Shown in pieces: positions 10,319 through 41,026 of a DNA stretch of 41,026 nt. Within the stretch, counting starts at the first letter, position 1; the number at the start of each line of letters is the position of its first letter. The notes beneath the pieces were generated by a model. The model saw nothing but the letters and a program-made list of their open reading frames with translations. It ran no database searches and was not told the DNA's origin. A program made the position numbers and the translations under genes. Origin of the DNA: Lawsonibacter sp. (GTDB taxonomy: Bacteria; Bacillota; Clostridia; Oscillospirales; Oscillospiraceae); contig JAAWHL010000016.1 in NCBI GenBank assembly GCA_022795855.1, positions 1 to 41,026 on the forward strand, given 5' to 3'.

Positions 10319-10412
10319 CCGCTCCCGCCGCGGCCTGTCCGGCGGAAATCCTCCCCACCCGGGCGCCGGCCCGGCTGGGAATACCGGTAAAATGAAAAAG
10401 GAGAATGCTGAA

Positions 10413-11495
10413 ATGAAAAAACTGACCGCTCTTGTCCTTGCCGCGGCCATGACGCTGAGTCTGGCCGCCTGCGGAAGCTCCCCCGCGCCGAATCCGGGCA
10501 GCTCCCCCAGCGCATCCGCCCCCAGCGCTTCCGCCCCCGCGCCCGGCGCCGACGGCGCCCCCGTGCTGACCACCACCGACCCCATCTCCATTGTCTGGTC
10601 CCACAACAACCCCGAGTCCAGCGCCGCCGGCCAGGCCGCCCTGAAATTCAAGGAGGAGATTGAGGCCCGCTCCAACGGGGTCATCTCCGTCAAGGTCTAC
10701 GCCAACGGCGAGCTGGGCACCGTGCCCGAAAACGACCAGGCCCTGCGGGAGGGCACAATCCAGATTGTCTGCGGCGTCTCCGGCGGCCTGGTGGATCCCA
10801 GCCTGTCCTATTTCGACCTGCCCTGCCTGGTGAGCACCTCCGAGGCCTTTGAGACGCTGTTCGGCCGCGGCACCGAGCTGCGGGCCGAGACCGAGCGCAG
10901 ATACGCCGATATGGGGATGCAGGTGCTGTCTCTGGTGGCCGGAGGCTTCAGCATCATCAGCTCCAACAAGGAGGTGCGCAGCTATGAGGATTTGGCGGGC
11001 CTGAATATCCGCACCTCTGAGAACAACATCTTCATGGAGGAGTTCCGCGACTGGGGCTGCAACCCCACGCCTCTGGCCTTCGGAGACCTGTACGTGGCCC
11101 TGCAGCAGGGCCTGGTGGAGGCCCAGAACAACACCCTGGACACCACGGTTTCCTCCCTGCTGTATGAGCAGCAGAAGTACATCATCAACACCAACCACGC
11201 GGTCAGCCCCCTGGGCATCTACATGAACAAGGCCTTCTATGACGGCCTGCCGGAGGACGCCCGCGCCCTGATTGACTGGGTGTGCGAGAATGTGATTGAC
11301 GACTATACCCGCCAGCTGTCCGCCGACGCGGCGGAGGCGGCCCTCAAGACGGTCCGGGACGCCGGCCTGGAGGTGATCGACTTTACCGACGAGGACCGGG
11401 CCCGGATGCGGGAAAACGCGCAGCCGGTCTATGACATGGTGGCCGGTCTTGTGGGGCAGGAGCTCATCGACCGAATCAGCGAGCTTCAGAAGTAA
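10413..11495 (+). CDS. dctP: TRAP transporter substrate-binding lipoprotein, DctP type
   Basis: Extracytoplasmic solute receptor of 360 residues. The ATG at 10413 is preferred over the in-frame ATG 21 bases upstream because AAAGGAG sits nine bases before it and the resulting N-terminus is a textbook lipoprotein signal, with lipobox LAAC and Cys20. A Ser/Pro/Ala-rich linker follows to about residue 50, then the DctP domain (IVWSHNNPESSAAGQAALKF, and NIRTSENNIFMEEF near 200). It is anchored outside the membrane and hands its ligand, usually a carboxylate, to DctQM. It is separated from dctM by a 209-base gap holding hairpins, which could allow higher expression of the receptor. Confidence 0.94.
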   Translation: MKKLTALVLAAAMTLSLAACGSSPAPNPGSSPSASAPSASAPAPGADGAPVLTTTDPISIVWSHNNPESSAAGQAALKFKEEIEARSNGVISVKVYANGELGTVPENDQALREGTIQIVCGVSGGLVDPSLSYFDLPCLVSTSEAFETLFGRGTELRAETERRYADMGMQVLSLVAGGFSIISSNKEVRSYEDLAGLNIRTSENNIFMEEFRDWGCNPTPLAFGDLYVALQQGLVEAQNNTLDTTVSSLLYEQQKYIINTNHAVSPLGIYMNKAFYDGLPEDARALIDWVCENVIDDYTRQLSADAAEAALKTVRDAGLEVIDFTDEDRARMRENAQPVYDMVAGLVGQELIDRISELQK

Positions 11496-11732: not shown

Positions 11733-13064
11733 TCAGAAGAGGCTGTACTGTCTGCGGAAGCGGAACAGGCAGGCCGCAGATACCGAGAACATAACGCACT
11801 CCGCCGCGGGCACCGCCAGCCACACGCCCATTACGCCCCAGACGCGGGGCAGCAGCAGAATGCCTCCCGCCAGCAGTCCGAACGTCCGCAGGAAGGAGAG
11901 GGCGGCGGACACCCTGCCGTTGGACAGCGCGGTAAACAGCGCGGAGGTGAACAGGTTCAGGCCGCAGAACAGGAAGCTGTAAGAAAACACCGAGAACCCC
12001 TCCGAGGCGATTTGGCAGACCCGCGCCGACTCCCCGGCGAACAGCCGCGCAATCCAGGGCCCGCCCAGCCGGGCCAGCAGGAAAACCAGGACCGACGCCG
12101 CCGCGAGAAACCGCACGCTGGCGGAAAAAACCTTTTTCTGCCGGGCCCCGTTTTTCCTTCCCCAGTTGAATCCGAAGACGGGCGCGACGCCGATGGAGAA
12201 CCCGATGTACAGGGTGTTCAGCAGGAACTGGGAATAAATGAGAATCGTGATGGCCGCCACGCCGTCCTCCCCCAGCAGCTCCATCATGGCGCGGTTGAAC
12301 AGGAAGGTGGACGCCGCCGCAGCCAGCTGGCCCACCATCTCGGAGGAGCCGTTGAGGCAGCTCTCCCGGACGGCCGGCCGCCGCCACCTGGGCCGGGTAA
12401 AACGCAGCGCTCCCCCGCGCCTCATAAAGTACGCCAGCCCGGACGCTGCGGGGATAAGATACCCCAGCCCCGTCCCCAGGGCGGCCCCGCGGACGCCCAG
12501 CCCGCACAGCGCCATAAAGAACCAGTCCAGCGCGATGTTCGCCGTCCCCGCCAGAACAGACAGCCCCAGGCCAAGCCCCGGCTTTCCGGCGGCCGCGAAC
12601 AGGTTGGAAAACATGGTCTGAAGCATGTTTGCCGGGAGAAACCACAGCAGCACCGCGAGATAGTCCCTGCAATAGGGGAACAGCCGCGGGCTGGCGCCCA
12701 GGGCAAAAATCAGTTCATCCAGCCAGACCGCTCCGGCCAGAAGGAGCAGGAACCCGGCCGCCGCCCCCAGGAGAACGAGCAGGGTGAAGTCCTCCCGGGC
12801 CTCCTGTGTTTCCCCCGCCCCCATTTTCCGGGAGACGACAGCGCTTCCTCCGGCGCCCAGCATGGTCCCCAGCCCTACCGTGAGATTCACCGCCGGGCAC
12901 ACGATGTTGATGGCCGAGAGCGCGTCCGTATTGACAAACCGCGCCGCGAAAGCCGTGTCTACCGCGGTATAGAGCCCCATGAAAATCATCATGGCCACGG
13001 AGGGGAGGGCGAAGCGCAGGAGCGAGCCTGCGGTCCACTCCCGGTCCAGGGCGCTGCCGCTCAT
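11733..13064 (-). CDS. MATE family efflux transporter
   Basis: A 443-residue inner-membrane transporter with about 12 hydrophobic segments arranged as two similar halves. The first half begins with LLRFALPSVAMMIFMGLYTAVDTAF, the classic MATE start, and AINIVCPAVNL and GTMLGAGGSAVVSRKMG follow. MATE pumps expel cationic drugs or metabolites against Na+ or H+. Its ATG overlaps the stop of the upstream AraC-GNAT gene by four bases (ATGA), so translation of the two is coupled, which ties the pump to the regulator and to a possible acetylation-based detoxification. Confidence 0.93.
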   Translation of the reverse strand: MSGSALDREWTAGSLLRFALPSVAMMIFMGLYTAVDTAFAARFVNTDALSAINIVCPAVNLTVGLGTMLGAGGSAVVSRKMGAGETQEAREDFTLLVLLGAAAGFLLLLAGAVWLDELIFALGASPRLFPYCRDYLAVLLWFLPANMLQTMFSNLFAAAGKPGLGLGLSVLAGTANIALDWFFMALCGLGVRGAALGTGLGYLIPAASGLAYFMRRGGALRFTRPRWRRPAVRESCLNGSSEMVGQLAAAASTFLFNRAMMELLGEDGVAAITILIYSQFLLNTLYIGFSIGVAPVFGFNWGRKNGARQKKVFSASVRFLAAASVLVFLLARLGGPWIARLFAGESARVCQIASEGFSVFSYSFLFCGLNLFTSALFTALSNGRVSAALSFLRTFGLLAGGILLLPRVWGVMGVWLAVPAAECVMFSVSAACLFRFRRQYSLF

Positions 13065-13897
13065 ACCTCCGCCTCTCCCCGGACGGGCGGCAGGACAAGC
13101 CGCTGGGTGGGATATCCGAATTCCGTGAGCAGCTCCGATTCGGCAAATCCCAGCCGCCTGTACTCCGCCCGCTGCCCCGTGTCGGCCCGGTCTCCCGCCC
13201 GGAAGGTGGTGACGCTCAGCCCGCGCTCCGCCGGCGTCCCGCGCCTCATCTGCGCAAGAAGCGCCTCCCAGACCCCGCAGCGCCGGTACTGCGGATGCAC
13301 CGCCAGGAAGTCGATGTGCCCCGTCCGGCGGGAAAACGCAGCCGCCCCGATGACGGCGGTTCCGTCCCGCATGAGCAGGGCCTGCCGCCGCTGAATATGC
13401 CCTCTGACCCGCTCCAGATGGGCGGACTCCTCCAGACAGGGGAAGCCGTCAATCACGAGGGCCGTGAAGGACATCCAGTCGGACACATCCCCCGGCGACG
13501 CATAGCAGACCTCCCCCGGCGCGGAGGGGCTTCCGTTCAGCACAAGCGCCAGCTGAAGCGGGTAAAATGCCTGATTCCGCCTGTACTCCAGGGGCGTCCG
13601 CTTGTACATGGACTTGAACACCGCAGAAAACGCCTGCTGGCTCTCATAGCCCGAGGACAGCGCAATCTCCAGAACCGGCGCGTCGGAGAACACCAGCCGC
13701 CGGGCCGCCTCGCTCAGCCGCCGGCGCTGAATGTAGTCGTGGGGCGTGATGCCCACCGTATCGGTGAACATCCGGTGCAGATGGTACTTGGAGTAGCGGG
13801 CCGCGTCCGCGACCGCATCCAGCTCCAGCTTCTCCTGAAGATGGGCCTCGATAAAGGAAATCACGTCTGAAATATGCCTGATTCTGTCGCAGTCCAT
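13061..13897 (-). CDS. AraC-type regulator fused to a GNAT acetyltransferase domain
   Basis: A 278-residue two-domain protein. Residues 8-106 are the double helix-turn-helix of AraC/XylS proteins placed at the N-terminus (YSKYHLHRMFTDTVGITPHDYIQRRRL, then GYESQQAFSAVFKSMYKRTPLEYR), as in Ada/Rob/MarA-like arrangement. Residues about 130-275 look like a GNAT fold, with motif A at 196-215 (FLAVHPQYRRCGVWEALLAQ); the usual final small residue of the R-x-x-G-x-G/A signature is Trp210, so catalysis is not certain. The acetyltransferase-like half may sense a ligand or act on a drug. AGGAGGG precedes the ATG. It precedes and overlaps the MATE gene and is likely its regulator. Confidence 0.88.
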   Translation of the reverse strand: MDCDRIRHISDVISFIEAHLQEKLELDAVADAARYSKYHLHRMFTDTVGITPHDYIQRRRLSEAARRLVFSDAPVLEIALSSGYESQQAFSAVFKSMYKRTPLEYRRNQAFYPLQLALVLNGSPSAPGEVCYASPGDVSDWMSFTALVIDGFPCLEESAHLERVRGHIQRRQALLMRDGTAVIGAAAFSRRTGHIDFLAVHPQYRRCGVWEALLAQMRRGTPAERGLSVTTFRAGDRADTGQRAEYRRLGFAESELLTEFGYPTQRLVLPPVRGEAEV

Positions 13898-23377: not shown

Positions 23378-23406
23378 TTGCCAGCGCCGCCGGGACATGG
23401 TATGCT
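23378..23406 (+). promoter_or_regulatory. Promoter of ridA
   Basis: TTGCCA (23378-23383) and TATGCT (23401-23406), spacer 17, thirty bases before the start codon. Confidence 0.75.
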
Positions 23407-23435
23407 GTAGGCATCAAGGAAAGGAGCTGTTTTTC

Positions 23436-23813
23436 ATGAAAGAAGCCGTGTTCACCGACCAGGCCCCCGCCGCCATCGGCCCCTACTCCCAGGCCGTCCG
23501 GGCCGGAGAGCTGCTGTTCATCTCCGGCCAAATCCCCGTGGACCCCGCCGCCGGCACGATTCCCGAGGGCATCGCCGCCCAGACCCGGCAGTCCCTGCGC
23601 AACATTAAGGCAATTCTGGCCCAGGCGGGCCTGGACCCCTCCTCCGTGGTGAAGACCACTGTCTTTCTCCGGAGCATGGAGGACTTCGCCGCCATGAACC
23701 AGGAGTACGCCGAATTTTTCCAGGGGACCGTCTACCCTGCCCGCTCCGCCGTGGAGGCAGCCCGCCTGCCCAAGGACGTGCTGGTGGAGATTGAGACCAT
23801 CGCCCATTTCTGA
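23436..23813 (+). CDS. ridA: RidA family reactive intermediate (enamine/imine) deaminase
   Basis: Small cytosolic trimeric enzyme that hydrolyses 2-aminoacrylate and related enamine/imine intermediates produced by PLP enzymes, releasing ammonia. The ATG at 23436 has AAAGGAG nine bases upstream, giving 125 residues, normal for the family. Conserved motifs are AIGPYSQAV (13-21), LLFISGQIP (27-34), [10 protein letters not shown] and [13 protein letters not shown], which carries the substrate-binding Arg103, and LVEIETIA with the acidic partner. It is a single-gene unit with its own promoter and terminator. Confidence 0.95.
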
Positions 23814-23833
23814 CCAGCCCCTGTTGACACTCT

Positions 23834-23867
23834 GCCGCCGCCGGAGGCCGTCCGGCGGCGGCTTTTT
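23834..23867 (+). terminator. Terminator after ridA
   Basis: A perfect 12-bp stem (23834-23845 with 23851-23862), 5-base loop, then TTTTT. Confidence 0.92.
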
Positions 23868-23908
23868 GCCCGATTTTCCAAAAATATGCAGGCGGGGCCC
23901 TCCCTGGA

Positions 23909-23937
23909 TTGCAATTTCCCGGCCGCTGTGCTACACT
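23909..23937 (+). promoter_or_regulatory. Promoter of the esterase/ATP-grasp operon
   Basis: TTGCAA (23909-23914) and TACACT (23932-23937), spacer 17, about 63 bases before the first gene. Confidence 0.7.
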
Positions 23938-24000
23938 GTAAAGAAACGGAACGGCCCTGCCGCCCCGCAAGTTTTGAAACAGGCAAAGAGGAACAGCGGT

Positions 24001-24765
24001 ATGATTGAAAAATGGGAGCTTACCATACCGGAGCTGACGGGGGACGCCCCCCGCCGGGCCTACGTCTACCTGCCCGACTCCTGGCAGGAGGACCAGTCCC
24101 GGCGCTATCCGGTGCTTTACATGTTTGACGGACACAATGTTTTCTTTGACGGGGACGCCACCTACGGCAGAAGCTGGCGGATGCTGGACTACCTGGAGGG
24201 GACCGGGACCCAGCTGATTGTGGCGGCGGTGGAGTGCAGCCGCGACCCCAGGGGGGGGCGGCTGTCGGAATACTCCCCCTTCACCTGCCGGATGCCCGGC
24301 CACGGACAGATTCACGGCCGGGGGCGGCTCACCATGGACTGGCTGCTGCGCACCTTCAAGCCGCAGATTGACGCGGAGTGGCCCACCCTCCCCGGCCGGG
24401 AGCACACCTTCATCGCGGGCAGCTCCATGGGCGGGCTGATGAGCCTGTACGCCGTCACCGAGTACAACCGGTACTTCTCCCGTGCGGCCTGCCTCTCCCC
24501 CTCCATCTGGTTCGCCACGGGGAAGCTGCGGGAGCTGCTGCGCTCCGTCCCCCTGGCGCCGGACACGGTGATTTACATGGATTACGGCTCCCGGGAGCTG
24601 AGCTTCCACCCCAATATGGCCGCTCAGTTTGCCGCCACGGCCTCCCTGCTGCTGGAGCGGCGGGTCCATCTGGACTGCCGCATCGTCCCCGGGGGCAACC
24701 ACAACGAGGCCAGCTGGGAGCGGCAGATCCCCTTCTTTATGAACACCCTGCTCTATGAATTTTGA
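24001..24765 (+). CDS. Alpha/beta hydrolase, esterase D-like (first of pair)
   Basis: A 254-residue cytosolic hydrolase of the PF00756-type esterase family (esterase D, enterobactin esterase, mycolyltransferase relatives). It opens with a beta-strand region ending RAYVYLPDSW, then PVLYMFDGHNVFFD, the nucleophile elbow GSSMG at 140-144 (Ser142), and GGNHNEASW with the probable catalytic His234. The ATG is preceded by GAGGAA and follows a good promoter. It leads an operon with a second hydrolase, an ATP-grasp protein and a DUF624 protein. Substrate unknown; a siderophore- or peptide-ester is possible in view of the ligase. Confidence 0.88.
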   Translation: MIEKWELTIPELTGDAPRRAYVYLPDSWQEDQSRRYPVLYMFDGHNVFFDGDATYGRSWRMLDYLEGTGTQLIVAAVECSRDPRGGRLSEYSPFTCRMPGHGQIHGRGRLTMDWLLRTFKPQIDAEWPTLPGREHTFIAGSSMGGLMSLYAVTEYNRYFSRAACLSPSIWFATGKLRELLRSVPLAPDTVIYMDYGSRELSFHPNMAAQFAATASLLLERRVHLDCRIVPGGNHNEASWERQIPFFMNTLLYEF

Positions 24766-24783
24766 TACAGGAGGACATGCTTC

Positions 24784-25554
24784 ATGGAAACGCAGTATTT
24801 CAGGCAGTACAGCCCGTCCCTGGGGCGGGACATGGAGTGCAAGGTCTACGGCCACGCCGGCCGGCCGGTGCTCTATATCCCCTGCCAGGACGGCCGGTTT
24901 TTCGACTTCGAGGGCTTCCACATGGCCGAGACCTGGAGCCCCTGGATTGAGTCGGGCCAGGTGAGCGTGTTCGCCATCGACACCCTGGACGCCGAGACCT
25001 GGTCGGACAAGGAGGGCAACCCCTACTGGCGGGCCCGCCGCCACGAGCAGTGGATCAACTACATCACCCGGGAGCTGGTCCCCTTCATCCGGGAGACCAC
25101 CAACCGGCGCAACGGCTGGACGGGCTATCCGGGCATCCTCGCCTTCGGGTGCAGCCTGGGGGCCACCCACGCCGCCAACCTGTACTTCCGCTTCCCCGAC
25201 CTGTTTGACGGCCTGCTGGCCCTCAGCGGCATCTACACCGCCGACTACGGCTTCGGCGGCTATATGGACGAGACCGTCTATCTCAACTCCCCCGTCCACT
25301 ACCTGGCCAATCTGGCCCCCGACCACCCCTTTATCGCCCAGTACAACCAGCACCGGGGGGCCATGTGCGTGGGCCAGGGCGAGTGGGAACAGCCCGAGAC
25401 CACCCGCCGCGTGGCCCAGCTGTGCCGGGAGAAGGGGATCAACCTGTGGGTGGATTTCTGGGGCTGCGACGTCAACCACGACTGGCCCTGGTGGCACCGG
25501 CAGGTGCAGTACTTCGTCCCCTGGCTGCTGGGCGGCGAGCCGGACCGGCAGTAG
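24784..25554 (+). CDS. Alpha/beta hydrolase, esterase D-like (second of pair)
   Basis: A 256-residue protein of the same broad family as its upstream neighbour, but clearly diverged. The nucleophile elbow is GCSLG (122-126, Ser124) and the likely catalytic histidine is His232 in NHDWPWW. The sequence is rich in Trp and Tyr, including the motif DTLDAETWSDKEGNPYWRARRHEQW, which suggests an aromatic-lined pocket. AGGAGGA lies eight bases before the ATG and only 18 bases separate it from the first esterase, so they are co-translated. Two related hydrolases in a row may form a heteromer or act on successive bonds. Confidence 0.87.
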   Translation: METQYFRQYSPSLGRDMECKVYGHAGRPVLYIPCQDGRFFDFEGFHMAETWSPWIESGQVSVFAIDTLDAETWSDKEGNPYWRARRHEQWINYITRELVPFIRETTNRRNGWTGYPGILAFGCSLGATHAANLYFRFPDLFDGLLALSGIYTADYGFGGYMDETVYLNSPVHYLANLAPDHPFIAQYNQHRGAMCVGQGEWEQPETTRRVAQLCREKGINLWVDFWGCDVNHDWPWWHRQVQYFVPWLLGGEPDRQ

Positions 25555-31706: not shown

Positions 31707-31735
31707 TTGACGTTTTTCCGAAAATGTGGTATTTT
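31707..31735 (+). promoter_or_regulatory. Promoter of the pgs (poly-gamma-glutamate) operon
   Basis: TTGACG (31707-31712) and TATTTT (31730-31735), spacer 17, about 70 bases before pgsB. The rest of the 31487-31805 gap is GC-rich and holds only the rny terminator and the palindrome described next. Confidence 0.7.
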
Positions 31736-31748
31736 ATACCTGCTTCAA

Positions 31749-31766
31749 AAGGGCCGGCCGGCCCTT
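31749..31766. promoter_or_regulatory. Perfect palindrome in the pgsB leader
   Basis: AAGGGCCGG-CCGGCCCTT is an exact 18-base palindrome starting 13 bases after the -10 box, covering roughly +6 to +24. It could be a repressor site or a leader hairpin. Confidence 0.5.
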
Positions 31767-31805
31767 CCGGCGGGCGACAATCGAACATGGGGAGGAGGAA
31801 CGGTC

Positions 31806-32927
31806 ATGACAGCACTGATTTTGATTCTGGCGCTGGCGTGGCTGTTCTATCTTTTCCGGGAGGCGCGGCAGGTGCGCCGGGCCCGGGCGGCGCTGGCCCA
31901 CGTGGTCCACGTCAACGGGACCCGGGGCAAGTCCACCGTCAGCCGGCTGATTGAGGCCGGCCTGCGGGCGGGGGGGCTGCGGGTCTTCTGCAAGACCACA
32001 GGCACCGACCCGATGACCATCGACGTGTCCGGCCGGGAGGAGCCCGTCCGCCGCCGGGGCCGGGCCAACATCAAGGAACAGGCCGTCATTCTGAGGCGGG
32101 CGGCCGCCCAGGGGGCCCAGGTGCTGGTGGCGGAGTGCATGGCGGTGCAGCCGGAGCTCCAGTGGACCGCTCAGCACCGGATTCTCCGTGCGGATATCGG
32201 GGTCATCACCAACGTCCGCCGGGACCACACCGACGTGATGGGGGACACCCTGGCGCAGATTTGCGCCTCGCTGTGCAATACCGTCCCCCGGAACGGGGTG
32301 CTGTTCACCGCGGAGGAGGGCCAGGCGGAGCGGATGTCCCAGGCGGCCCGGGCGCTGGAGTGCCGGTTTGTCCCCGTCCGCCCCGACGGCAGCGAGCCGG
32401 ACTTTGACTTTGCCGAGAACATTGCCCTGGCACTGGCCGTCTGCCGGGAGCTGGGGGTGGACCGGGAGACCGCGCTGCGGGGGATGGCGGACTTCCGCCG
32501 GGATCCCTACGCCCTGTCCCTCCACCGCCTGGGACAGGGGTTGTTTATCAACGGCCTGTCCATCAACGACATTCAGTCCACCTGCGCGGTCTGGGCGCGG
32601 CTCAGGGCGGAGCGGGGCCTGGAGGGCAGGGAGCTGACCCTTCTGGTGAACAACCGGCCCGACCGGGGCAGCCGCACCCGGGACATGCTGGCCCTGTGCC
32701 TGGAGCTGAGGCCCGCGCAGGTCTGGCTGATGGGGGCGGCCCAGGGCTATATGCGCCGGGGGCTGAGGCGGGGCCTGCCCCTGTGCCGGGTGCGGGGCCT
32801 GAGGAGCCCCCGGGAGGCGGAGCTGGAGGGGCTCAACGCGGACCAGGTGGTGTTCGCCGTGGGCAACATTGCCGGCGGCGGCCGGGAACTGATGGCATTG
32901 GTAAGGGAGGCGGGAGAGCTTGTATAA
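31806..32927 (+). CDS. pgsB: Poly-gamma-glutamate synthase subunit PgsB (CapB)
   Basis: ATP-dependent amide ligase of the Mur-ligase superfamily that polymerises glutamate through its gamma-carboxyl on the cytoplasmic face of the membrane. The 373-residue protein (393 in Bacillus subtilis) has an N-terminal membrane anchor (2-17), the P-loop NGTRGKST (37-44), KTTGTDPMTIDV, the family-typical ECMAVQPELQW, GVITNVRRDHTDVMG, FINGLSINDIQST, and the ending VFAVGNIAGGGRELM. Every conserved block of PgsB is present. GGAGGAGG precedes the ATG. It is the first gene of the operon and overlaps pgsC by eight bases. Whether the polymer is D-, L- or mixed glutamate cannot be told. Confidence 0.95.
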   Translation: MTALILILALAWLFYLFREARQVRRARAALAHVVHVNGTRGKSTVSRLIEAGLRAGGLRVFCKTTGTDPMTIDVSGREEPVRRRGRANIKEQAVILRRAAAQGAQVLVAECMAVQPELQWTAQHRILRADIGVITNVRRDHTDVMGDTLAQICASLCNTVPRNGVLFTAEEGQAERMSQAARALECRFVPVRPDGSEPDFDFAENIALALAVCRELGVDRETALRGMADFRRDPYALSLHRLGQGLFINGLSINDIQSTCAVWARLRAERGLEGRELTLLVNNRPDRGSRTRDMLALCLELRPAQVWLMGAAQGYMRRGLRRGLPLCRVRGLRSPREAELEGLNADQVVFAVGNIAGGGRELMALVREAGELV

Positions 32928-33348
32928 CCAGATTATTCTGGCCGGCGTGCTGGTCAGCCTGCTGTTCACCGAGGCCACCGGCCTGTCCGCCGGACTGGTG
33001 GTCCCCGGCTATCTGGTCCTCAGCCTCCACGCCCCCTGGCGGCTGGCCTACACCCTGGCCGTGGCCGCAGCCGCGGCGGGGCTGTGCCGCCTGCTGTCCC
33101 GGGCGGTCATCCTCTACGGCCGTCGGAGGTTTGCCCTGCTGCTGGCGCTCACTTTCCTGCTGGACCTGGTTTTGGGGCGGTCCGGCCTGCTGCCCGTCCG
33201 GCTCAGCCTGGTAGGACTGCTGATTCCCGGGATTATCGCCCGGGAGATGGACCGGCAGGGGTTCGGGGACACGCTGCTCAGTCTGGCCGCCGTCACCGCC
33301 GTTCTGGCGCTGCTGGCGGCGCTGATGGGCTACCCCGTGTTCCGGTGA
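32920..33348 (+). CDS. pgsC: Poly-gamma-glutamate synthase membrane subunit PgsC (CapC)
   Basis: A 142-residue membrane protein (149 in Bacillus) with about four hydrophobic segments, the partner that PgsB needs for polymerisation and probably for export. Family motifs are LLFTEATGLSAGLVVPGYLVL near the start, ILYGRRRFALLLALTF in the middle, and VGLLIPGIIAREMDRQG. The start is a TTG inside the last codons of pgsB (eight-base overlap), with GGGAGG upstream, so the two subunits are made in a coupled, near-equal ratio. Confidence 0.94.
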   Translation: MYNQIILAGVLVSLLFTEATGLSAGLVVPGYLVLSLHAPWRLAYTLAVAAAAAGLCRLLSRAVILYGRRRFALLLALTFLLDLVLGRSGLLPVRLSLVGLLIPGIIAREMDRQGFGDTLLSLAAVTAVLALLAALMGYPVFR

Positions 33349-33359
33349 GGGGGAGCGGC

Positions 33360-34421
33360 ATGAGGAAGATTTCCCGCGTCTCCCTGGCCGGGGCGGCGCT
33401 GATCCTGATTCTGGCGGCGGCGCTGACCTTCGCCGGCGGCCGCCGGGCCCGGGCGGCGGATTACGAGCGGAAGCTGGCCGCCGCGGAGCTGATGCAGATC
33501 TGCATGGACCGCATCAAGGTCTACAAGGAGGAGGCCGGGGTGGGGCTCACCCCGGAGGATTTCCACGGGACGGGGCTGGTCGGTTCGGAGTACACCCTGG
33601 TGACCACCACCAACGGCGTGGCGGAGGCCAAGCGCACCACAGCCAATTCCGACATGGCGGCCCTGGCCGTGCAGCTGCTGGAGGAGGCGGGGATCCGGCC
33701 CGGGGACCGGGTGGGGGCGGCCTTCTCCGGGTCCTTTCCCGGGCTGAATCTGGCGGTGCTGTCCGCCTGCGCGGTGATGGAGGTGGATTTGGCGTACATC
33801 TGCTCCGCCGGGGCCTCCACCTACGGGGCCAACCAGCCGGAGATTACCTTCCCCGAGATGGCCTGCCGGCTGGTGGAGGAGGGCCTGCTGCCCCAGGACG
33901 GAATCGCGGTGTCCATGGGGGGCGACTTTGACTGCGGCGGGGAGATGTACCCCGACCTGCGGGACGGTATCCTGGAGCGGCTGGAGGCCCTGGGCCCGGA
34001 GCTGATTTGGGAACCGGACTATCAAAAAAACCTGCTCCTGCGGCAGGAGCTTTACAGCCGGGGCGGCCCCATCCGGTGCTTTATCGGCGTGGGGGGCAGC
34101 GTCACCACCCTGGGGCTGGCGGAGGACCGGCTGGGGTGCGGGGTGACCCCTCCGGACGTCATCCGCACGCTCAACAAAAACAGCGGCCTGATGGAGATTT
34201 ACAACGCCCGGGGCCTGCCGGTGATTCACCTGCTGAACGTCAAGCGGCTGGTGGCCGACTACGGCCTGCCCTTTGACCCCCCGCGCCTCCCCGCCCCGGG
34301 GGAGAGCGCCGTTTACTTTACCGTCCGCTACCCCTGGCACTGGGCGGCCGGCGGACTGCTCGGGGCGGCGGCGCTGCTGCTGGAGGGCCGCCGGAGGGCC
34401 CGGAGGGAGGAGGGGCCATGA
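33360..34421 (+). CDS. pgsW: Poly-gamma-glutamate system protein, PgsW type
   Basis: A 353-residue protein with an N-terminal signal anchor (about 5-25) and a second hydrophobic segment near the C-terminus (about 322-340), so its 300-residue middle probably faces outside. It resembles the family annotated as poly-gamma-glutamate system protein, found beside PgsB/PgsC in genomes without CapA. Conserved-looking blocks are YTLVTTTNGVAEAKRTT, GVGGSVTTLG and GLPVIHLLNVKRL. Biochemical role is unknown; by position it could replace CapA/PgsA in polymer export or elongation. It begins 11 bases after pgsC and overlaps the next gene by four (ATGA). Confidence 0.82.
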   Translation: MRKISRVSLAGAALILILAAALTFAGGRRARAADYERKLAAAELMQICMDRIKVYKEEAGVGLTPEDFHGTGLVGSEYTLVTTTNGVAEAKRTTANSDMAALAVQLLEEAGIRPGDRVGAAFSGSFPGLNLAVLSACAVMEVDLAYICSAGASTYGANQPEITFPEMACRLVEEGLLPQDGIAVSMGGDFDCGGEMYPDLRDGILERLEALGPELIWEPDYQKNLLLRQELYSRGGPIRCFIGVGGSVTTLGLAEDRLGCGVTPPDVIRTLNKNSGLMEIYNARGLPVIHLLNVKRLVADYGLPFDPPRLPAPGESAVYFTVRYPWHWAAGGLLGAAALLLEGRRRARREEGP

Positions 34422-35302
34422 GACGCGTATCCGCGCTGATTTCCGTTCTGCTCCTGCTGGCCGGGTGCGGGGCCCCGGAGCCGGCCCCCGCCGCCCCTCA
34501 GGCGGAGACCCCGCCCGCCGTCTCCCGGGCGGAGGACCCCCCTGCCGCCTATCCTGCGGAGCTTCTGCCCCGGGAGGGGCTGGAGCCGCCGGACTGGACC
34601 CTGGCCGACTTCCCCGGGCTTTTTGAGGGGGGCGGGCCCGTACAGCGGGAGGCGCGCCTTCTGCTGGAGGGCACCGAGCTGGAGAACACGGTGACCGTCC
34701 TGCGGGGGGAGGAGGAGGGCCCCGCCGTCTACGTGGTGGCCGGGGTCCACGGGGACGAGACCGCCGGCTGGATGGCGGGCGGGCTGCTGAAGCGGGCGGC
34801 GCTGCGGGCGGGGACGCTGTATATCCTCAGCCCCGCCAACCCCTACGGGGCGGAGCACGACCGGCGCAATACCAAATCGGACCGGGACCTGAACCGGAAC
34901 TTCCCCGGCGACCCGGAGGGCTGGGACGCCGAGCGCATAGCCGCCGCCCTCTTTGCCCACATTGAGGAGAGCACACCCGTCCTGGTGCTGGACCTCCACG
35001 AGGCCCGGGTGCACCAGGGGGAGCGGGACAATCTGGGCAACTCGGTCATCTGCCAGTCCCTGGACGGGGTGGGGGAACTGGTGCTGGACATCCTGCTGGA
35101 GAGCGAAGCGGGGGGGCTGTGCGCCGCCCCCATCACCCTGTACGGCTCGCCGCCCCCGGGCAGCCTCAACCGGACCGTGACCCTGGAGCTGGGCGTGCCT
35201 GTGATTACCGTGGAGACCAGCCGGGCCGAGCCACTGGCCCAGCGGGTGCGGACCCAGTTGGAGCTGGCGGAGTTTGTCCTGGAGAACTGCGGTCTGCTGT
35301 GA
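34418..35302 (+). CDS. M14-fold zinc carboxypeptidase/deacylase lipoprotein
   Basis: A 294-residue exported lipoprotein: signal with lipobox LLAGC (Cys17), a Pro/Ala linker to about 45, then an M14-type domain close to the succinylglutamate desuccinylase/aspartoacylase branch. Zinc ligands are His111 and Glu114 (GVHGDETAG) and His194 (LDLHEA); DLNRNFPG supplies substrate-binding Asn/Arg, and Glu266 (VITVETSR) is the likely catalytic base. This branch acts on C-terminal or N-acylated glutamate/aspartate, and phage PGA hydrolases (PghP) share the fold. Locked into the pgs operon by a four-base overlap, it may trim gamma-glutamyl chains at the cell surface. Substrate is inference. Confidence 0.85.
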   Translation: MRRVSALISVLLLLAGCGAPEPAPAAPQAETPPAVSRAEDPPAAYPAELLPREGLEPPDWTLADFPGLFEGGGPVQREARLLLEGTELENTVTVLRGEEEGPAVYVVAGVHGDETAGWMAGGLLKRAALRAGTLYILSPANPYGAEHDRRNTKSDRDLNRNFPGDPEGWDAERIAAALFAHIEESTPVLVLDLHEARVHQGERDNLGNSVICQSLDGVGELVLDILLESEAGGLCAAPITLYGSPPPGSLNRTVTLELGVPVITVETSRAEPLAQRVRTQLELAEFVLENCGLL

Positions 35303-35317
35303 AAAGGAGGGGAGCTT

Positions 35318-36742
35318 GTGGCGGAAAAGAAGCCGCTGCCTGTCCGGGTGGAGTCGGTGGATACCCGGGAGCTGTCCATCGGCGCGGGGCTGGTGCTGTT
35401 CAGCTTTCTCATGCCCCTGATGTTCAATGTGGACAACTTTTTTGTCCTGCGCTCCCTGAGCCGGGCGCTGCGCCTGGGGGAGAAGACCGACCTGATGGTG
35501 GCCGCCGTGCAGCTGGTGGCCCTGAACTCCATCCGGGGCATTCCCCACTACGTGGGGGCCTACTTCATCGGGGAGTCCGTCGAGTTCCGGATAGAGGGGC
35601 GCGGCGAGGGGCGCAGCGCGTGGCTGATTAACTCCCTGCTGATTATTCTGACCCTTCAGGTGACCTACTGGGGCATTGGGGAGGTCCACCGCATCCACTA
35701 CGATTTCGGCCTGCCCGCCTTTCTGGTGTGCAGCTTTGTGCTGCTCTTCCGGCGGCTGGATTACCAGTACATCGCCCTGTATAAAAAAGCCCTGCTGATT
35801 GTCCTGTTTCTCACCAGCTTTCAGTTCCTGGACGTCATGCCCGCCCTGGTGGGCCTGCCGGTGGGCCGGGGGGAGACCTCCTGGGACATCAAGATGGCCT
35901 CCGCCGTGCTGGAGGGGGAGATGGTGCTCAACGCGGTGGCCCTGGTGGGGGCGGCGCTGTTCCTGCTGTTCGGGCTGCTGATTTTCTCCCAGCTGAAGGA
36001 CGAGAACACCCTGCGGGAGCTGAGCTTTCTCCGGGAGCAGAACCAGGCCATCCGCACCCAGGCCCAGCTGAACGAGATGAAAAACCGCACCTATCAGGAG
36101 ATGCAGTATCTGGTCCACGACCTGAAATCCCCGCTGACGGCGGTGCAGACCCTGGTGGGGGTCATCAAGATGGAGTGCGAGATGGAGCAGCGGGCCCAGG
36201 ATGTGGAGTACCTCACCCGCATCGAGGGGGCGGTGGAGCAGATGAGCGGCATGATTTCCGACATCCTCTACGAGGACCAGCGCACCCTGGTGTCCACCCA
36301 GTCCCTGCTGGGGGTGGCCCTGGCCCAGAGCTCCGTCAGCGGCTACGCCCTGTATATCCATGTGGACAACCGGGTGCCTGAGGCCCTGGTCAGCGCCAAC
36401 CGTATCCTGTTTCCCAGGGCGCTGGTCAACCTGATGCAGAACTCCGCCCAGGCCATCCCGGAGGGGCGGGAGCCGGCGATTTGGCTGAAGGTGGACCGGG
36501 AGCAGACCCCTGAGGGGAGCGCGGTGGTGTTCACCGTCTCGGACAACGGCACGGGAATCCGGGAGGAGGACCGGCAGGAAATCTGGGGCAGGGGGGTCTC
36601 GGGACGGAGATCCAGCGGGCTGGGCCTGGCCTTTGTGGGAAGCGTGGTAGAGAAAATGGGCGGGGAGATACGCGTGTGCAGCAAGGCGGGGAAGGGAGCC
36701 GCCATCTCCATCGTCGTGCCCGAGGGAGGAACAGAGAGATGA
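35318..36742 (+). CDS. Membrane sensor histidine kinase of the pgs operon
   Basis: A 474-residue sensor kinase. About six hydrophobic segments fill the first 225 residues with no large extracytoplasmic domain, so it may sense the membrane state or a partner membrane protein. A short coiled coil (226-258) leads to the HisKA box YLVHDLKSPLTAV with phosphoacceptor His267. The ATPase domain has N-box LVNLMQNSAQAI, G1 VSDNGTGI, and G2 SGLGLAFVGSVVEKMGG. The start is GTG after AAAAGGAGG, 15 bases behind the M14 gene; its stop overlaps the response regulator by four bases. The kinase is therefore made with PGA enzymes and probably reports on polymer synthesis or wall state. Confidence 0.92.
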   Translation: MAEKKPLPVRVESVDTRELSIGAGLVLFSFLMPLMFNVDNFFVLRSLSRALRLGEKTDLMVAAVQLVALNSIRGIPHYVGAYFIGESVEFRIEGRGEGRSAWLINSLLIILTLQVTYWGIGEVHRIHYDFGLPAFLVCSFVLLFRRLDYQYIALYKKALLIVLFLTSFQFLDVMPALVGLPVGRGETSWDIKMASAVLEGEMVLNAVALVGAALFLLFGLLIFSQLKDENTLRELSFLREQNQAIRTQAQLNEMKNRTYQEMQYLVHDLKSPLTAVQTLVGVIKMECEMEQRAQDVEYLTRIEGAVEQMSGMISDILYEDQRTLVSTQSLLGVALAQSSVSGYALYIHVDNRVPEALVSANRILFPRALVNLMQNSAQAIPEGREPAIWLKVDREQTPEGSAVVFTVSDNGTGIREEDRQEIWGRGVSGRRSSGLGLAFVGSVVEKMGGEIRVCSKAGKGAAISIVVPEGGTER

Positions 36743-37356
36743 AAAAAGAGACCGCCATTTTAGTGATTGACGACGACGGGCAGATCTGCTTTGCCCTGGG
36801 GGAGCTGTTCAAGTTCCAGGGCTGGCGGGCCTGTTCAGCCCAGGACGTGGACAGCGGGCTGGCCGCCTTCAAGGCGGAGCGGCCGGACCTGGTGCTCATC
36901 GACTACCACCTGCCCCGCATCAACGGGGTGGAGGGCGTGAAGCGCCTGCGCCGGCTGTCCCCCGACGTGCCCATTCTGGTGTTCACCATCGACGAGAGCC
37001 AGGAGGTAGCCGACGCCTTCCTGGAGGCGGGGGCCACCGACTTTGCCCTGAAGCCCATCAAGGCCCCTGACATCGTCAGCCGGGTCAAGCTCCATCTGCG
37101 CCTTCTGCAGAAGGCGCAGGAGCACCGGGAGCCGGTGCTGGCCAAGGGGCTGTCCCAGGGGACCCTGAAGCTGATTGGGGACTTCCTGGAGGGGCAGAGC
37201 GACTACCTCACCGCCAACGACATCGCCGAGGGCACCGGGCTGGCCTATCAGACGGTGTACCGCTATCTCCAGCACATGACCCAGGAGAACCGGGTGGAGA
37301 TGCTCAGCATCTACGGCAAGGTGGGCCGGCCCAAGCAGGTCTACCGGAAGCTCTAG
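36739..37356 (+). CDS. Response regulator with receiver and CitB/DcuR-like HTH domain
   Basis: A 205-residue regulator. Residues 5-118 are the receiver: acidic pocket Asp11-13, phosphoacceptor Asp55 (LVLIDYHLP), Thr83 and Lys105. A linker leads to a helix-turn-helix at about 155-185 (LTANDIAEGTGLAYQTVYRYLQHM) ending in YGKVGRPKQVYR, the arrangement of CitB/DcuR-type regulators rather than OmpR or NarL. The ATG overlaps the kinase stop (ATGA) and both form one two-component pair. Likely targets are the pgs promoter and the promoter region of the following gamma-glutamyltranspeptidase genes. A terminator follows. Confidence 0.92.
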   Translation: MKKETAILVIDDDGQICFALGELFKFQGWRACSAQDVDSGLAAFKAERPDLVLIDYHLPRINGVEGVKRLRRLSPDVPILVFTIDESQEVADAFLEAGATDFALKPIKAPDIVSRVKLHLRLLQKAQEHREPVLAKGLSQGTLKLIGDFLEGQSDYLTANDIAEGTGLAYQTVYRYLQHMTQENRVEMLSIYGKVGRPKQVYRKL

Positions 37357-37373
37357 CGCGCTCCCAGCGTTTC

Positions 37374-37400
37374 AGGCACAGCCGGCGGCTGTGCCTTTTT
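37374..37400 (+). terminator. Terminator of the pgs operon
   Basis: A 10-bp stem (37374-37383 with 37387-37396), GGC loop, TTTTT at the end, then TCTTT. It separates the pgs operon from the transpeptidase genes. Confidence 0.88.
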
Positions 37401-37683
37401 CTTTATGCAGGATTTCTGTGATAGACTTTCATTTAAGCGCCCCGGAGGCGGCGAAACGGGGCATTTTTCGGGAATCCGGGGGGAAATTTGAAAGTGCGCC
37501 ATTCTCAGGGTGAATTTTTGAACAGATTTTGAACGCATGTAAAATCCGGCAAAAATCGACGGGTTTTCACCGGGGGCTTTGTGCTAAAATGAGAGAGAAA
37601 TGAGAAAAAATTTTGGTTCATGAAAAAAATAAATGGACCTATCGAAAAAGCGCAGGATTCGCCAATATAAATATGAGAAGAAA
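37401..37683 (+). other. AT-rich regulatory gap before the transpeptidase genes
   Basis: No gene is supported. Unlike the rest of the window this gap is AT-rich. It holds direct repeats (described separately), two further TAAAAT boxes (37540-37545 and 37585-37590) that could be -10 elements, the first with TTGAAC 16 bases upstream, and ACTTTCATTT/AAATTTGAAAGT-like inverted matches. It reads as a regulated, possibly multi-promoter region. Confidence 0.5.
37516..37534 (+). promoter_or_regulatory. Direct repeats TTTTGAAC, candidate response-regulator site
   Basis: TTTTGAAC occurs at 37516-37523 and again at 37527-37534, an 11-base period (one helical turn), so a dimer could bind both on the same DNA face. 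A near match on the other strand (TTTTGAA) lies at 31744-31750 just behind the pgs -10 box. Confidence 0.45.
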
Positions 37684-37712
37684 TAGACAGGAGGATTTGC
37701 ATCGAATATAAT
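37684..37712 (+). promoter_or_regulatory. Promoter of the first gamma-glutamyltranspeptidase gene
   Basis: TAGACA (37684-37689) and TATAAT (37707-37712), spacer 17. The leader of about 110 bases contains two hairpins (37727-37744 and around 37765-37785). Confidence 0.7.
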
Positions 37713-37828
37713 TTTAACATTCAGAAGGCCGGACAGGTCCGGCCCCCAGCCCCTCCGGTGCGATTCCGGCGCGGCGGAGCGCCGGTTTGCAAATAGAATG
37801 TGTTCATCAAAAAGAAGGAGGAAACACA

Positions 37829-39658
37829 ATGAACGTGAGAAAAAGCCTTGCACTGTTCCTCACGGTGGGTATGACCCTCTCTCTGGCGTCCTGCGGTCAG
37901 AAGACCCCGCCCGCCCAGAGCACGCCCCCCGCCCAGAGCACCCCGGCGGCCAGCACGCCCGCCGCCCCTGAAAAACCGGTCCTGACCCCCGCCTACTCGG
38001 TGGAGGGCTTTGAGACTGTGGACTCCGACGGCAACCGCATCACCACCGGCCGGGACGCCACCGCCAGCCGGGCTATGGCCACCGCCTCCAAGTACGAGGT
38101 GTCCCAGGTGGGCGCCGAGATTATGGAGAAGGGCGGCAACGCGGTGGACGCCGCCGTGGCCATGGGCTTTGCCATCGGCGTGTGCGAGCCCTTCACCTCC
38201 GGCCTGGGCGGCGGCGGCCTGGCCACCATCCACACCGCCGACGGGCAGGACTTCTTCGTGGACTTCCGCGAGATTGCCCCCGCCGCGGCTACCCTGGACC
38301 TGTACCTGGACGCCGAGGGCAAGAGCAACGGCAATACCGTCACCGGCGGCCTGGCCTCCGGCGTGCCCGGCGACGTGGCCGGCCTGCTGTACCTGCTGGA
38401 GAACTACGGCACCATGAGCCGCCAGGAGGTGATGGAGCCCGCCATCCGCATCGCCACCGAGGGCTTCACCGTCTCTCAGTACTGCGCCAACGCCATCTCC
38501 GACGCCTATGAGAAGGCCGTGCAGTTCCCCGAGATGCAGGAGGTCTACTGGAATGACCTGGGCCTGCCCTACGAGGTGGGCGACGTCATCACCAACCCCG
38601 ACCTGGCCAAGGCCCTGCAGAAGATTGCCGACGAGGGCAAGGACGGCTTCTACAAGGGCGAGATTGCCCAGGCCCTGGTGGACACCGTCAACAAGTACGG
38701 CGGCGTCATGACCCTGGACGACCTGGCCGCCTACGAGGTCCAGGTCCACACCCCCGTTACCAGCACCTACCGGGGCTACAAAATCATCTCCTCGCCTCCC
38801 CCCTCCTCCGGCGGCACCCATCTGATTGAGATTCTGAACATTCTGGAGAACTTTGACGTGGGCTCCATGAAGGTCAACTCCGCCGAGTATATGCACCTGT
38901 TTGCCGAGGCCTTCAAGCTGTCCTATGCCGACCGCGCTCAGTATATGGCCGACACCAACTTTGTCCCCAACGTGCCCCTGGACGGCCTGACCAGCAAGGA
39001 GTACGCCAAGACCCGCGCCGAAATGATTGACCTGGACAAGGCCCAGGAGTTCTTCTACGGCGACCCCACCCTGTTTGAGCACACCGATACCACCCACTTC
39101 TCCGTGGCCGACGTGGACGGCAACTGCGTGGCTATCACCAAGACCATCAACTACTACTTCGGCTCCGGCGTGATGGTCGGCGGCTGGGGCTTTATGATGA
39201 ACAACGAGATGGACGACTTCTCCACCAACCCCGAGTCGGTCAACAAGGTCGAGCCCGGCAAAAAGCCTCTGTCCTCCATGAGCCCCACCGTGGTCCTGAA
39301 GGAGGACGGCAGTCCCTTCATGGTGCTGGGCACCCCCGGCGGCGCCCGCATCTTCGCCTCCGTGGCGCAGATTATCAGCCGCGTGATTGACAGCGGCATG
39401 TCCCTCCACGACGCCATCTCCGCCCCCAAAATCTGGAACAACGGCGGCGCCAACAACCTTCAGTACGAAAACGCCCTGAAGGGCTACGAGGAGTACGCCG
39501 TCACCGAGGAGACTCTGGCCAAGCTGGGCGAGATGGAGCACGGCGACATCACCACCGCCGCCTCCGGCGCGGTCCAGGCCATCCAGTTCATGGACGACGG
39601 CACCCTGTACGGCACCGCTGATCCCCGCCAGGACGGCAAGGCCGTGGGCTGCAACTGA
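37829..39658 (+). CDS. Gamma-glutamyltranspeptidase family lipoprotein (first of tandem pair)
   Basis: Extracytoplasmic Ntn-hydrolase that cleaves and transfers gamma-glutamyl groups; CapD of Bacillus anthracis, which cuts PGA and links it to the wall, is a member. The ATG at 37829 follows AAGGAGG and gives a lipoprotein signal with lipobox LASC (Cys22) and a repetitive Pro/Gln/Ser/Thr linker to about 55. The 609-residue precursor should self-cleave before Thr422 (DTTHFSVADVDGN), releasing a small subunit with MMNNEMDDFS and PLSSMSPTVVL; GLGGGG near 133 is also typical. Lipid anchoring keeps it at the surface, near the PGA locus products. Glutathione hydrolysis is the alternative role. Confidence 0.93.
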   Translation: MNVRKSLALFLTVGMTLSLASCGQKTPPAQSTPPAQSTPAASTPAAPEKPVLTPAYSVEGFETVDSDGNRITTGRDATASRAMATASKYEVSQVGAEIMEKGGNAVDAAVAMGFAIGVCEPFTSGLGGGGLATIHTADGQDFFVDFREIAPAAATLDLYLDAEGKSNGNTVTGGLASGVPGDVAGLLYLLENYGTMSRQEVMEPAIRIATEGFTVSQYCANAISDAYEKAVQFPEMQEVYWNDLGLPYEVGDVITNPDLAKALQKIADEGKDGFYKGEIAQALVDTVNKYGGVMTLDDLAAYEVQVHTPVTSTYRGYKIISSPPPSSGGTHLIEILNILENFDVGSMKVNSAEYMHLFAEAFKLSYADRAQYMADTNFVPNVPLDGLTSKEYAKTRAEMIDLDKAQEFFYGDPTLFEHTDTTHFSVADVDGNCVAITKTINYYFGSGVMVGGWGFMMNNEMDDFSTNPESVNKVEPGKKPLSSMSPTVVLKEDGSPFMVLGTPGGARIFASVAQIISRVIDSGMSLHDAISAPKIWNNGGANNLQYENALKGYEEYAVTEETLAKLGEMEHGDITTAASGAVQAIQFMDDGTLYGTADPRQDGKAVGCN

Positions 39659-39691
39659 CCAAAATTTTCCGCTGTGCGAACCTCACGCCGT

Positions 39692-39719
39692 GTTCCGCCG
39701 CATACTTCTGCGGCGGAAC
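39692..39719 (+). other. Intercistronic hairpin between the two transpeptidase genes
   Basis: An 11-bp perfect stem (39692-39702 with 39709-39719), 6-base loop, no U-tract. It probably stabilises the upstream message or reduces read-through to the second gene. Confidence 0.55.
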
Positions 39720-39758
39720 GCGGCGGAGTATGAAAGACAGGAAAGGAAATGGAAAAGC

Positions 39759-41026
39759 ATGAGCATGAAACAGATCTCCGCACTTCTTCTGGCAGGCGCC
39801 ATGACCTTCTCACTGGCCGCCTGCAACACCAGCACCCCCAACCCCCCGGCGGTCACCAACCCCCCCGCCCCCGCCGTCTCCTCTCCTGCGGACTCCGCCC
39901 CTGAGGAGCCCCAGGGCGACGGCGTGTGGCGTCCCTTCAACGAGAAGGGCGAGACCATCCGCACCGACCGCGACGCCACCGGCCAGAACGGTATGGTGGC
40001 CACTTCCAACGTCTACGCCACCATGGCCGGCCAGACGATCCTGGAGCAGGGCGGCAGCGCCGTGGACGCGGCCATCGCCGTGTGCTACGCCCTGGGCGTG
40101 GCCGAGCCCTTCACCTCCGGCCTGGGCGGCGGCGGATTTATGGTCATCCATACCGCCGACGGAGAGAACAGCTTCATCGACTACCGCGAGGTGGCCTCCT
40201 CCGGGCAGACTGCCGAGACCTGGCTGGACTCCAGCGGCGAGCTGATTCAGAACGCCAACAGGGTGGGCGGCCTGGCCGTGGGCGTCCCCGGCGAGGTGGC
40301 CGGGCTGGAGCTGGCCCTGTCCGAGTTCGGCTCGGGCAAGCTGACCCGCCAGCAGATTATGCAGCCGGCCATCGACCTGGCCAACAACGGCTACGTGGTC
40401 AGCCCCACCATGTACGGCGCCATTTCCGACGAGTATGAGCGGATGATCGGCGAGTACAGCGAGCTGGGCGCCTACTACCTGAAGGACGGCCTGCCCTACG
40501 AGGTAGGCGACACCGTCACCAACCCCGACCTGGCCAAGACCCTGCAGCTGATTGCCGAGGGCGGCGCGGACGCCTTCTACAAGGGCCCCGTGGCCGAGGC
40601 TGTCGCGGCCGCCGTCCAGAAGCACGGCGGCGTGATGACCACCGACGACCTGGCCGCCTACAAGCCGGAGGAGCGGGTGCCCGTCACCGGAACCTACCGG
40701 GGCTATCAGATTATCTCCGCGCCTCCTGCCTCCTCGGGCGGCACCCACATCATCGAGGCGCTGAACGTGCTGGAGAACTACGACATCGGCGCTATGCAGG
40801 TCAACTCCGCCGAGTACATCCACCTGCTTTCTGAGACCTTCAAGGCCTGCTTTGCCGACCGCGCCGCCTACATGGCCGACACCGCCTTTGCCGAGGTGCC
40901 CCTGGCCGGCCTGACCAGCAAGGACTACGCCAAAACCATTTACGAGAAAATCACCGACCAGAGCCAGGACTGGACCGCCGGCAATCCCGCCCAGTATGAG
41001 GGCAACTCCACCACCTCCTTCTCCAT
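39759..41026 (+). CDS. Gamma-glutamyltranspeptidase family lipoprotein (second of pair, cut by window end)
   Basis: The first 422 residues of a second family member, clearly paralogous to the previous one. Lipobox LAAC (Cys22), then a Pro/Ala/Thr linker. Shared blocks include EPFTSGLGGGGFMVIHTADGE, GLAVGVPGEVAGLELAL, GLPYEVGDTVTNPDLAKTL and TYRGYQIISAPPASSGGTH. The window ends within the predicted autocleavage site, which reads STTSFS where its neighbour has DTTHFS: the histidine after the nucleophilic Thr is replaced by Ser. AAAGGA lies upstream; an ATG two codons later is possible. About 100 bases and a hairpin separate it from the first gene, with no promoter seen, so the pair is probably co-transcribed. 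Confidence 0.92.
   Translation, partial: MSMKQISALLLAGAMTFSLAACNTSTPNPPAVTNPPAPAVSSPADSAPEEPQGDGVWRPFNEKGETIRTDRDATGQNGMVATSNVYATMAGQTILEQGGSAVDAAIAVCYALGVAEPFTSGLGGGGFMVIHTADGENSFIDYREVASSGQTAETWLDSSGELIQNANRVGGLAVGVPGEVAGLELALSEFGSGKLTRQQIMQPAIDLANNGYVVSPTMYGAISDEYERMIGEYSELGAYYLKDGLPYEVGDTVTNPDLAKTLQLIAEGGADAFYKGPVAEAVAAAVQKHGGVMTTDDLAAYKPEERVPVTGTYRGYQIISAPPASSGGTHIIEALNVLENYDIGAMQVNSAEYIHLLSETFKACFADRAAYMADTAFAEVPLAGLTSKDYAKTIYEKITDQSQDWTAGNPAQYEGNSTTSFS

Follow-up and report, generated by a model that had tools for sequence, protein, structure and literature searches.

What is a poly-gamma-glutamate (gamma-PGA) synthesis locus for when it carries its own two-component system and adjoins two gamma-glutamyltransferases (GGTs), and which of these activities does the two-component system control? 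This polymer has been described chiefly from Bacillus, as capsule or slime. We analysed such a locus at positions 31707-41026 of a 41,026-nucleotide stretch of Lawsonibacter sp. (assembly GCA_022795855.1, contig JAAWHL010000016.1; the window, on contig C49 in our numbering), together with its counterparts in relatives. With somewhat better than even confidence we read the locus as the biosynthetic and regulatory half of a PgsW-type cycle, in which a gamma-glutamyl polymer would be made, sensed, degraded and reimported, and in which the two-component system would control degradation and uptake, not synthesis.

All features of the locus lie on the plus strand. The first gene, pgsB (31806-32927), encodes a CapB-type, Mur-ligase-like poly-gamma-glutamate synthase that scores 319.9 bits against TIGR04012, above the equivalog cut-off of 222.7, and also matches PF08245; FolC and Mur models appear as weaker matches. 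Its CapC-type membrane partner pgsC (32920-33348) matches PF14102 with 91.2 bits (cut-off 27) and TIGR04011 with 93.8 bits, slightly below the 96.45 of that model. The third gene, PgsW (33360-34421), reaches 304.6 bits against TIGR04332 (curated cut-off 100) and is followed by an M14 lipoprotein of the AstE/AspA type (34418-35302; PF24827), a putative gamma-glutamyl zinc hydrolase that we call M14A. A sensor histidine kinase (35318-36742), with HisKA and HATPase_c domains over their cut-offs, and a response regulator (36739-37356) complete the series. The regulator combines a receiver domain (PF00072, 84.9 bits) with a C-terminal helix-turn-helix region (PF09339 HTH_IclR, 20.5 bits, slightly below the cut-off of 22). 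The genes overlap by 8 bp (PgsB/PgsC), 4 bp (PgsW/M14A) and 4 bp (kinase/regulator), with gaps of 11 bp (PgsC-PgsW) and 15 bp (M14A-kinase). A preliminary description of this DNA had the order and spacings right to the base, and curated models agree with its family names, with a reservation for PgsC and its TIGR04011 score. A promoter-like site precedes the operon (31707-31735, TTGACG-17-TATTTT with TG before the second hexamer; a 9/12 consensus match only), and a terminator-like hairpin found by consensus scan closes it (37374-37396).

Beyond the hairpin follow two lipoproteins of the GGT family, GGT1 (37829-39658; PF01019, 547.4 bits), which has no lid loop, and GGT2 (39759-41026; 329.9 bits), which is incomplete at the contig end and covers positions 2-332 of the 512 in the profile. 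Since the hairpin and a strong promoter (37684-37712, TAGACA-17-TATAAT, 11/12 in a consensus scan) separate the regulator from GGT1, the two GGT genes form a second transcription unit; their membership in the pgs operon was rejected because the hairpin, this promoter and an overlapping operator intervene. The view that processing and signalling share a single cluster therefore holds as far as linkage in many relatives is concerned, but not for the GGTs as parts of the same operon. In relatives the GGT operon runs on into genes for a lipoprotein of the DUF6305 family (PF19823), a permease resembling DctM (PF06808) and a further M14 protein, here called M14B, none of which the preliminary description could have noticed because the contig ends inside GGT2.

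The operator is a repeat-like motif with the consensus AGATAAATAAGAGAAAAAATtGA that precedes the GGT/DUF6305 operon and has its 3' end on the -35 box, and we infer that it is the binding site of the response regulator. The window copy (37662-37691) scores 31.6 bits, with a weaker repeat at 37593; the window is among the 33 upstream regions of kinase/regulator loci on which the position weight matrix was trained. At up to 3 mismatches the 21-base operator core occurs once in the 2.5-Mb genome (0 in a backward control), and the promoter of the pgs operon gave no operator match at 20 bits. PgsBCW, M14A and the two-component system thus form one operon without the operator, which instead sits on the presumed degradation/uptake operon. 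This placement suggests that degradation and uptake would be regulated rather than synthesis, and that synthesis and sensing would be set together.

We then compared loci with and without the two-component system, reducing 134 loci to 121 by removing those with identical PgsW or kinase DNA. At 20 bits the operator is present in 40 of the 69 loci with a kinase or regulator and in none of the 52 without, and dinucleotide shuffles gave 0/121. At 25 bits the counts are 30/69 and 0/52, with 0/121 for shuffles and 1/121, a kinase/regulator locus, for the reversed control. The 29 of 33 matches in the training loci are not independent because the matrix was trained there; held-out kinase/regulator loci gave 11/36. 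Most sites (35/41) precede a GGT or DUF6305 gene. In a test along the PgsW tree, which kept 84 of 101 rows by leaving out those cut short beside PgsW and lacking the kinase/regulator, 36 rows had kinase/regulator and operator, 13 kinase/regulator only, none the operator only and 35 neither. The association between operator and regulator is strong in counts, though not proven free of kinship.

The conserved gene set is larger than the window shows. TIGR04332 is patchily distributed, given its presence in 2/295 genomes of an order sample, 13/61 of a genus sample and 26/398 of a phylum sample (each including the Lawsonibacter genome itself). Wide flanks were fetched for 33 of the 38 other TIGR04332 genomes, and a further scan supplied 80 named PgsW loci, the best 80 of 349 relatives, some on contigs shared with the fetched genomes. 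Within 10 kb of PgsW these 80 loci contain PgsB (79), the permease (62), DUF6305 (59), M14B (59), a GGT (40), a response regulator (38) and a kinase (36), PgsC accompanying PgsB in 79/80; many of them end early at contig ends. In the 40 loci flanked by 7.5 kb or more in both directions, DUF6305 and the permease are each present in 35, M14B in 34, a GGT in 25, the regulator in 21, the kinase in 19 and M14A in 13, and PgsBCW stands alone in 5. The arrangement recurs beyond chance: many relatives, members of other families of the phylum included, have kinase, regulator, M14 and GGT genes in the neighbourhood of PgsBCW, in line with the gene-neighbourhood check proposed earlier. Judged by record titles, the habitats of the conserved set are those of gut, rumen and sediment anaerobes.

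M14B follows PgsW most closely. At E 1e-20 it is found in 24/398 phylum genomes, all with PgsW, that is in 24/26 PgsW genomes and 0/372 others (Fisher test p 1.6e-36, the genomes not being independent); 9 of the 24 positive genomes supplied sequences for the profile and 15 did not. The two PgsW genomes without M14B are G533, whose PgsW match is partial and below cut-off, and G620, in which pgs lies on a contig of 6970 bases.

The kinase carries a sensor region (residues 1-245) that is rich in membrane segments, with 15 invariant columns among 15 sequences whose identity falls to 19%. It matched no Pfam model above cut-off (one below) and no sequence in the PDB at E-values up to 10. A profile of this region matches in 38/398 phylum genomes, 15 of them with PgsW. 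All ten matches of at least 200 bits lie beside PgsW (seven were in the profile; G620, G662 and G665 are new), and 5 of 8 matches between 140 and 194 bits lie in genomes that carry PgsW at another locus. Fifteen loci were fetched from genomes without PgsW; in 12 of them DUF6305 and the kinase are no more than 1 kb apart, and 9 of 10 loci inspected by eye seem to have oligopeptide-importer genes nearby. Pfam searches of the kinase neighbours in eight loci gave importer families (PF00005 with PF08352, PF00496, PF00528) in seven (L113, L114, L118, L121, L123, L124, L125) and DUF3798 in L116. In L123, L124 and L125 the operator separates the regulator from the importer ATPase gene (PF08352). The suggestion in the preliminary description of a self-monitoring polymer system is a fair guess; kinases of the same family also adjoin peptide importers in PgsW-less genomes. 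In L116 an operator of 29.3 bits (about 1955-1984, minus strand) precedes the DUF3798 gene, not GGT or DUF6305.

Of the 68 named loci that extend at least 1.5 kb beyond PgsW, 38 have a kinase or regulator downstream of it, on the same strand and no more than 3 kb away. On a tree of 101 PgsW proteins the kinase label changes about 12 times, at least 9 of them on well-supported branches, which points to repeated gain or loss of the association. In four genomes (L106, L107, L108, L109) no kinase adjoins PgsBCW; there the kinase-regulator pair is found at a separate locus, in the company of M14B-like genes, DUF6305, a GGT and a permease.

In the cycle that we favour, PgsB and PgsC would join glutamates by gamma-amide bonds into a polymer at the membrane, as their families suggest. 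PgsW, with an alpha/beta domain probably outside the membrane and a helix at each end, would stand in for CapA in export or assembly. The kinase would respond to a cue linked to the polymer or to products of its breakdown, perhaps by way of the lipoprotein DUF6305, and the phosphorylated regulator would bind the operator abutting the -35 box and activate the GGT operon. Lid-less GGT lipoproteins and M14 zinc hydrolases would trim the polymer extracellularly and the DctM-like permease would import glutamate or gamma-glutamyl fragments, so that a surface polymer could be made, sensed, taken down and recovered. If this is correct, gamma-PGA is a managed resource rather than a coat, and functions follow for DUF6305, TIGR04332 and two M14 families. 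The locus also provides a defined operator and a two-component system that apparently has a single target site.

Several results weigh against this cycle. The sequence-reversed operator control matched 7/121 loci at 20 bits, all of them with kinase/regulator; 29 of the 69 kinase/regulator loci show no operator at this threshold. PgsW is absent from 11 of these 29 and sits at a different locus in 5, but others carry the full gene set (e.g. L074, L133, L204, L205). An independent-pairs test of kinase against operator yielded 6 pairs and was not significant (median p 0.25). A majority of sensor-bearing genomes, 23/38, have no PgsW, and 15 of the 40 well-flanked loci contain no GGT. A search of the Lawsonibacter assembly itself did not find the permease (the best match reached 34.4 bits at 25% identity), and all that was seen of M14B is a C-terminal piece, 86% identical to L026, where contig C125 ends. 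The equivalent in L026 of the stretch between the breaks of C49 and C125 spans about 3.3 kb as estimated from coordinates, and we presume that the permease and DUF6305 lie in this assembly gap. Finally, in 18 of the 24 named loci whose clusters lack kinase/regulator, the DUF6305-permease-M14B genes precede PgsB in the same orientation and at a distance of no more than 1.1 kb, a placement that fits a role in synthesis or export as well as one in uptake.

This last arrangement and the strict co-occurrence of M14B with PgsW, as for an indispensable partner, give rise to the main rival explanation. Here DUF6305, the DctM-like permease and M14B would be a machine for synthesis, export or attachment that does the work of CapA and CapE, the GGTs would be anchors like CapD, and the product would be a regulated wall-attached capsule without recycling. 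CapD does belong to the GGT family, and its structure (3g9k) matches GGT1. However, GGT1 is nearer to ordinary GGTs, scoring 293.6 bits against 2dbu_A and 149.9 bits against the CapD chain 3g9k_L among the large chains of solved GGTs, and its assignment as CapD was rejected on these scores. The pgs-cluster permease is a weak match to the DctM Pfam family and resembles DctM/CitMHS transporters, which are importers. Moreover, where the two-component system is present, the operator sits on the GGT/DUF6305 operon, and in the PgsW-less L123, L124 and L125 it precedes peptide-import genes. We therefore regard the attached capsule as rather unlikely and retain the recycling cycle as the preferred reading.

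The enzymes assigned to degradation are consistent with the cycle. The lid segment of GGT1 has 13 residues, as in B. licheniformis (4y23), compared with 23 in E. coli (2e0w), and Thr421 is kept. All 59 aligned GGTs, GGT1 included, have lid segments of 12-16 residues and retain the catalytic Thr421; the alignment comprised distinct GGTs of more than 450 amino acids and 300 bits, GGT2 being cut before the lid/Thr region. The GGT of B. subtilis, which is also lid-less, is reported to accept the polymer and is described as a gamma-PGA hydrolase (PMC9073855). Unlike the lid-less GGTs of B. subtilis and B. licheniformis, those of the locus are tandem lipoproteins associated with pgs genes and with a two-component operator.

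M14A matches PF24827 AstE_AspA with 61.3 bits (cut-off 25). It shares with the AstE/AspA deacylases the catalytic domain, the H-x2-E...H pattern and further charged residues; H111, E114, H194, R150, N159, R160 and E266 are invariant in 31/31 aligned sequences, and we take H111, E114 and H194 to be the zinc ligands. The lipobox LLLLAGCG was recognized by eye, and a lipobox-like pattern is present in 14 of the 31. The phage gamma-PGA endo-hydrolase PghP is also a carboxypeptidase-A-like zinc enzyme (PMC4497714). None of the 13 PDB sequence matches of M14A is a PghP-named chain, its kin being of the AstE/AspA, DoeB and MpaA types. From these likenesses we infer that GGT1 and M14A could act on gamma-PGA. 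In L140 and in L026, whose contig is also that of L128, a single frame encodes PgsW together with M14A; since these sequences come from metagenome assemblies, the fusion may be a frame error. DUF6305 is fused to M14A in L056 as judged by Pfam, although the fused-frame scan did not flag this locus, and L057 and L059 resemble it by place and length only.

Two further explanations bear on what these enzymes act upon. PgsBCW might add short gamma-glutamyl tags to another surface molecule, trimmed by GGT and M14, with no long polymer being formed. Members of the Mur-ligase/FolC superfamily of PgsB often add one or a few glutamates, and the product of a PgsW system was not named in the literature searched. 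On the other hand, PgsB lies far above its equivalog cut-off with PgsC at its side in 79/80 loci, and the lid-less GGTs are similar to those for which use of a polymeric substrate is reported, which makes such tagging improbable. Alternatively, the GGT pair could be an ordinary operon for scavenging gamma-glutamyl peptides that neighbours pgs by chance. The GGTs are indeed a separate transcription unit, the genome encodes a third GGT away from the pgs locus (C89:6730-8229), and PF01019 is widespread (8/14 control genomes). Against this, a GGT lies within 10 kb of PgsW in 40/80 named loci in varied orders and the kinase-linked operator sits on the GGT promoter. A chance neighbourhood is unlikely given this conservation, and we lend the scavenging operon very little credence.

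Does synthesis in such a locus require CapA? PgsW occupies the position of CapA, as had been proposed, the third gene matching TIGR04332. It gave no Pfam match at E 0.001 and has no credible sequence relative in the PDB. In an AlphaFold model (predicted local distance difference test score, pLDDT, 91.8; predicted template-modelling score, pTM, 0.90) a Rossmann-like alpha/beta domain is flanked by helices 6-25 and 326-350, which we take as transmembrane helices; a hydropathy scan flagged the first helix and missed the last. CapA (PF09587) is not the third gene as in Bacillus-type operons. CapA had been described as absent, and none is encoded in the cluster, but a genome-wide search found two PF09587 genes above cut-off on contigs C80 and C119, so that its absence from the genome was rejected. 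In a survey of 37 of the 39 PgsW genomes (the Lawsonibacter genome included, G533 and G625 left out), 28 had a PF09587 match at E 0.001 (26 above cut-off) and 9 had none. As the latter include G662 and G434, each 99% complete, a PgsW cluster can exist without CapA, and the locus bears on whether gamma-PGA synthesis needs this protein. A CapA-like frame of the PF09587 type lies within 2 kb upstream of pgsB in L164 (Fusibacter paucivorans) and L189 (a Clostridiales metagenome-assembled genome), with E-values of 8.7e-10 and 1.6e-10; this search used phmmer with the two CapA proteins of the Lawsonibacter genome, and remote CapA genes may escape it. Five Lachnospiraceae loci (L185, L186, L187, L192, L200) have a tandem PgsW pair behind PgsBC, and DUF6305, permease and M14B were not found in the stretches examined.

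Compared with pgsBCAE of B. subtilis and capBCADE of B. anthracis, the locus shares PgsB (CapB) and PgsC (CapC) as adjacent first genes and a membrane protein in third place. It differs in having the TIGR04332 protein PgsW and no CapA in the cluster, a two-component system within the operon, and an operator on the GGT operon. CapD, encoded in the B. anthracis locus, is a GGT-family enzyme like the GGTs here. To our knowledge, capBCA of Francisella has no link to a kinase, M14, DUF6305 or permease gene. In a table of PMC5362203 the third gene of that operon, capA, carries the label that NCBIfam gives to TIGR04332, 'Hypothetical poly-gamma-glutamate system protein'. To judge by this label, Francisella may offer a precedent for a PgsW-like gene in third place, under another name. 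Outside Bacillus, PMC3815933 lists Fusobacterium nucleatum as a gamma-PGA producer.

The PgsB, PgsC and TIGR04332 families are already named; no mention of the larger set, the sensor, the operator or the link between M14B and PgsW was found in the literature searched. It is conceivable, and we propose this tentatively, that PgsW loci represent a complete extracellular glutamate bank. It would comprise a PgsBCW polymer, a dedicated two-component system with a new kind of sensor and a recurrent operator, lid-less GGTs, M14 hydrolases and a DUF6305/DctM-like importer, with PgsW in place of CapA, and PgsB-PgsC-PgsW-DUF6305-permease-M14B would be one functional unit not described before.

Elsewhere the window encodes a complete TRAP transporter at 8431-11495 (DctQ 8431-8907, DctM 8911-10203, DctP 10392-11495). 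On the minus strand at 13061-13897 an AraC-type helix-turn-helix domain is fused to a GNAT acetyltransferase domain, and two adjoining putative esterases (PF00756) at 23791-25554 lie behind a RidA-like protein (PF01042) at 23397-23813.

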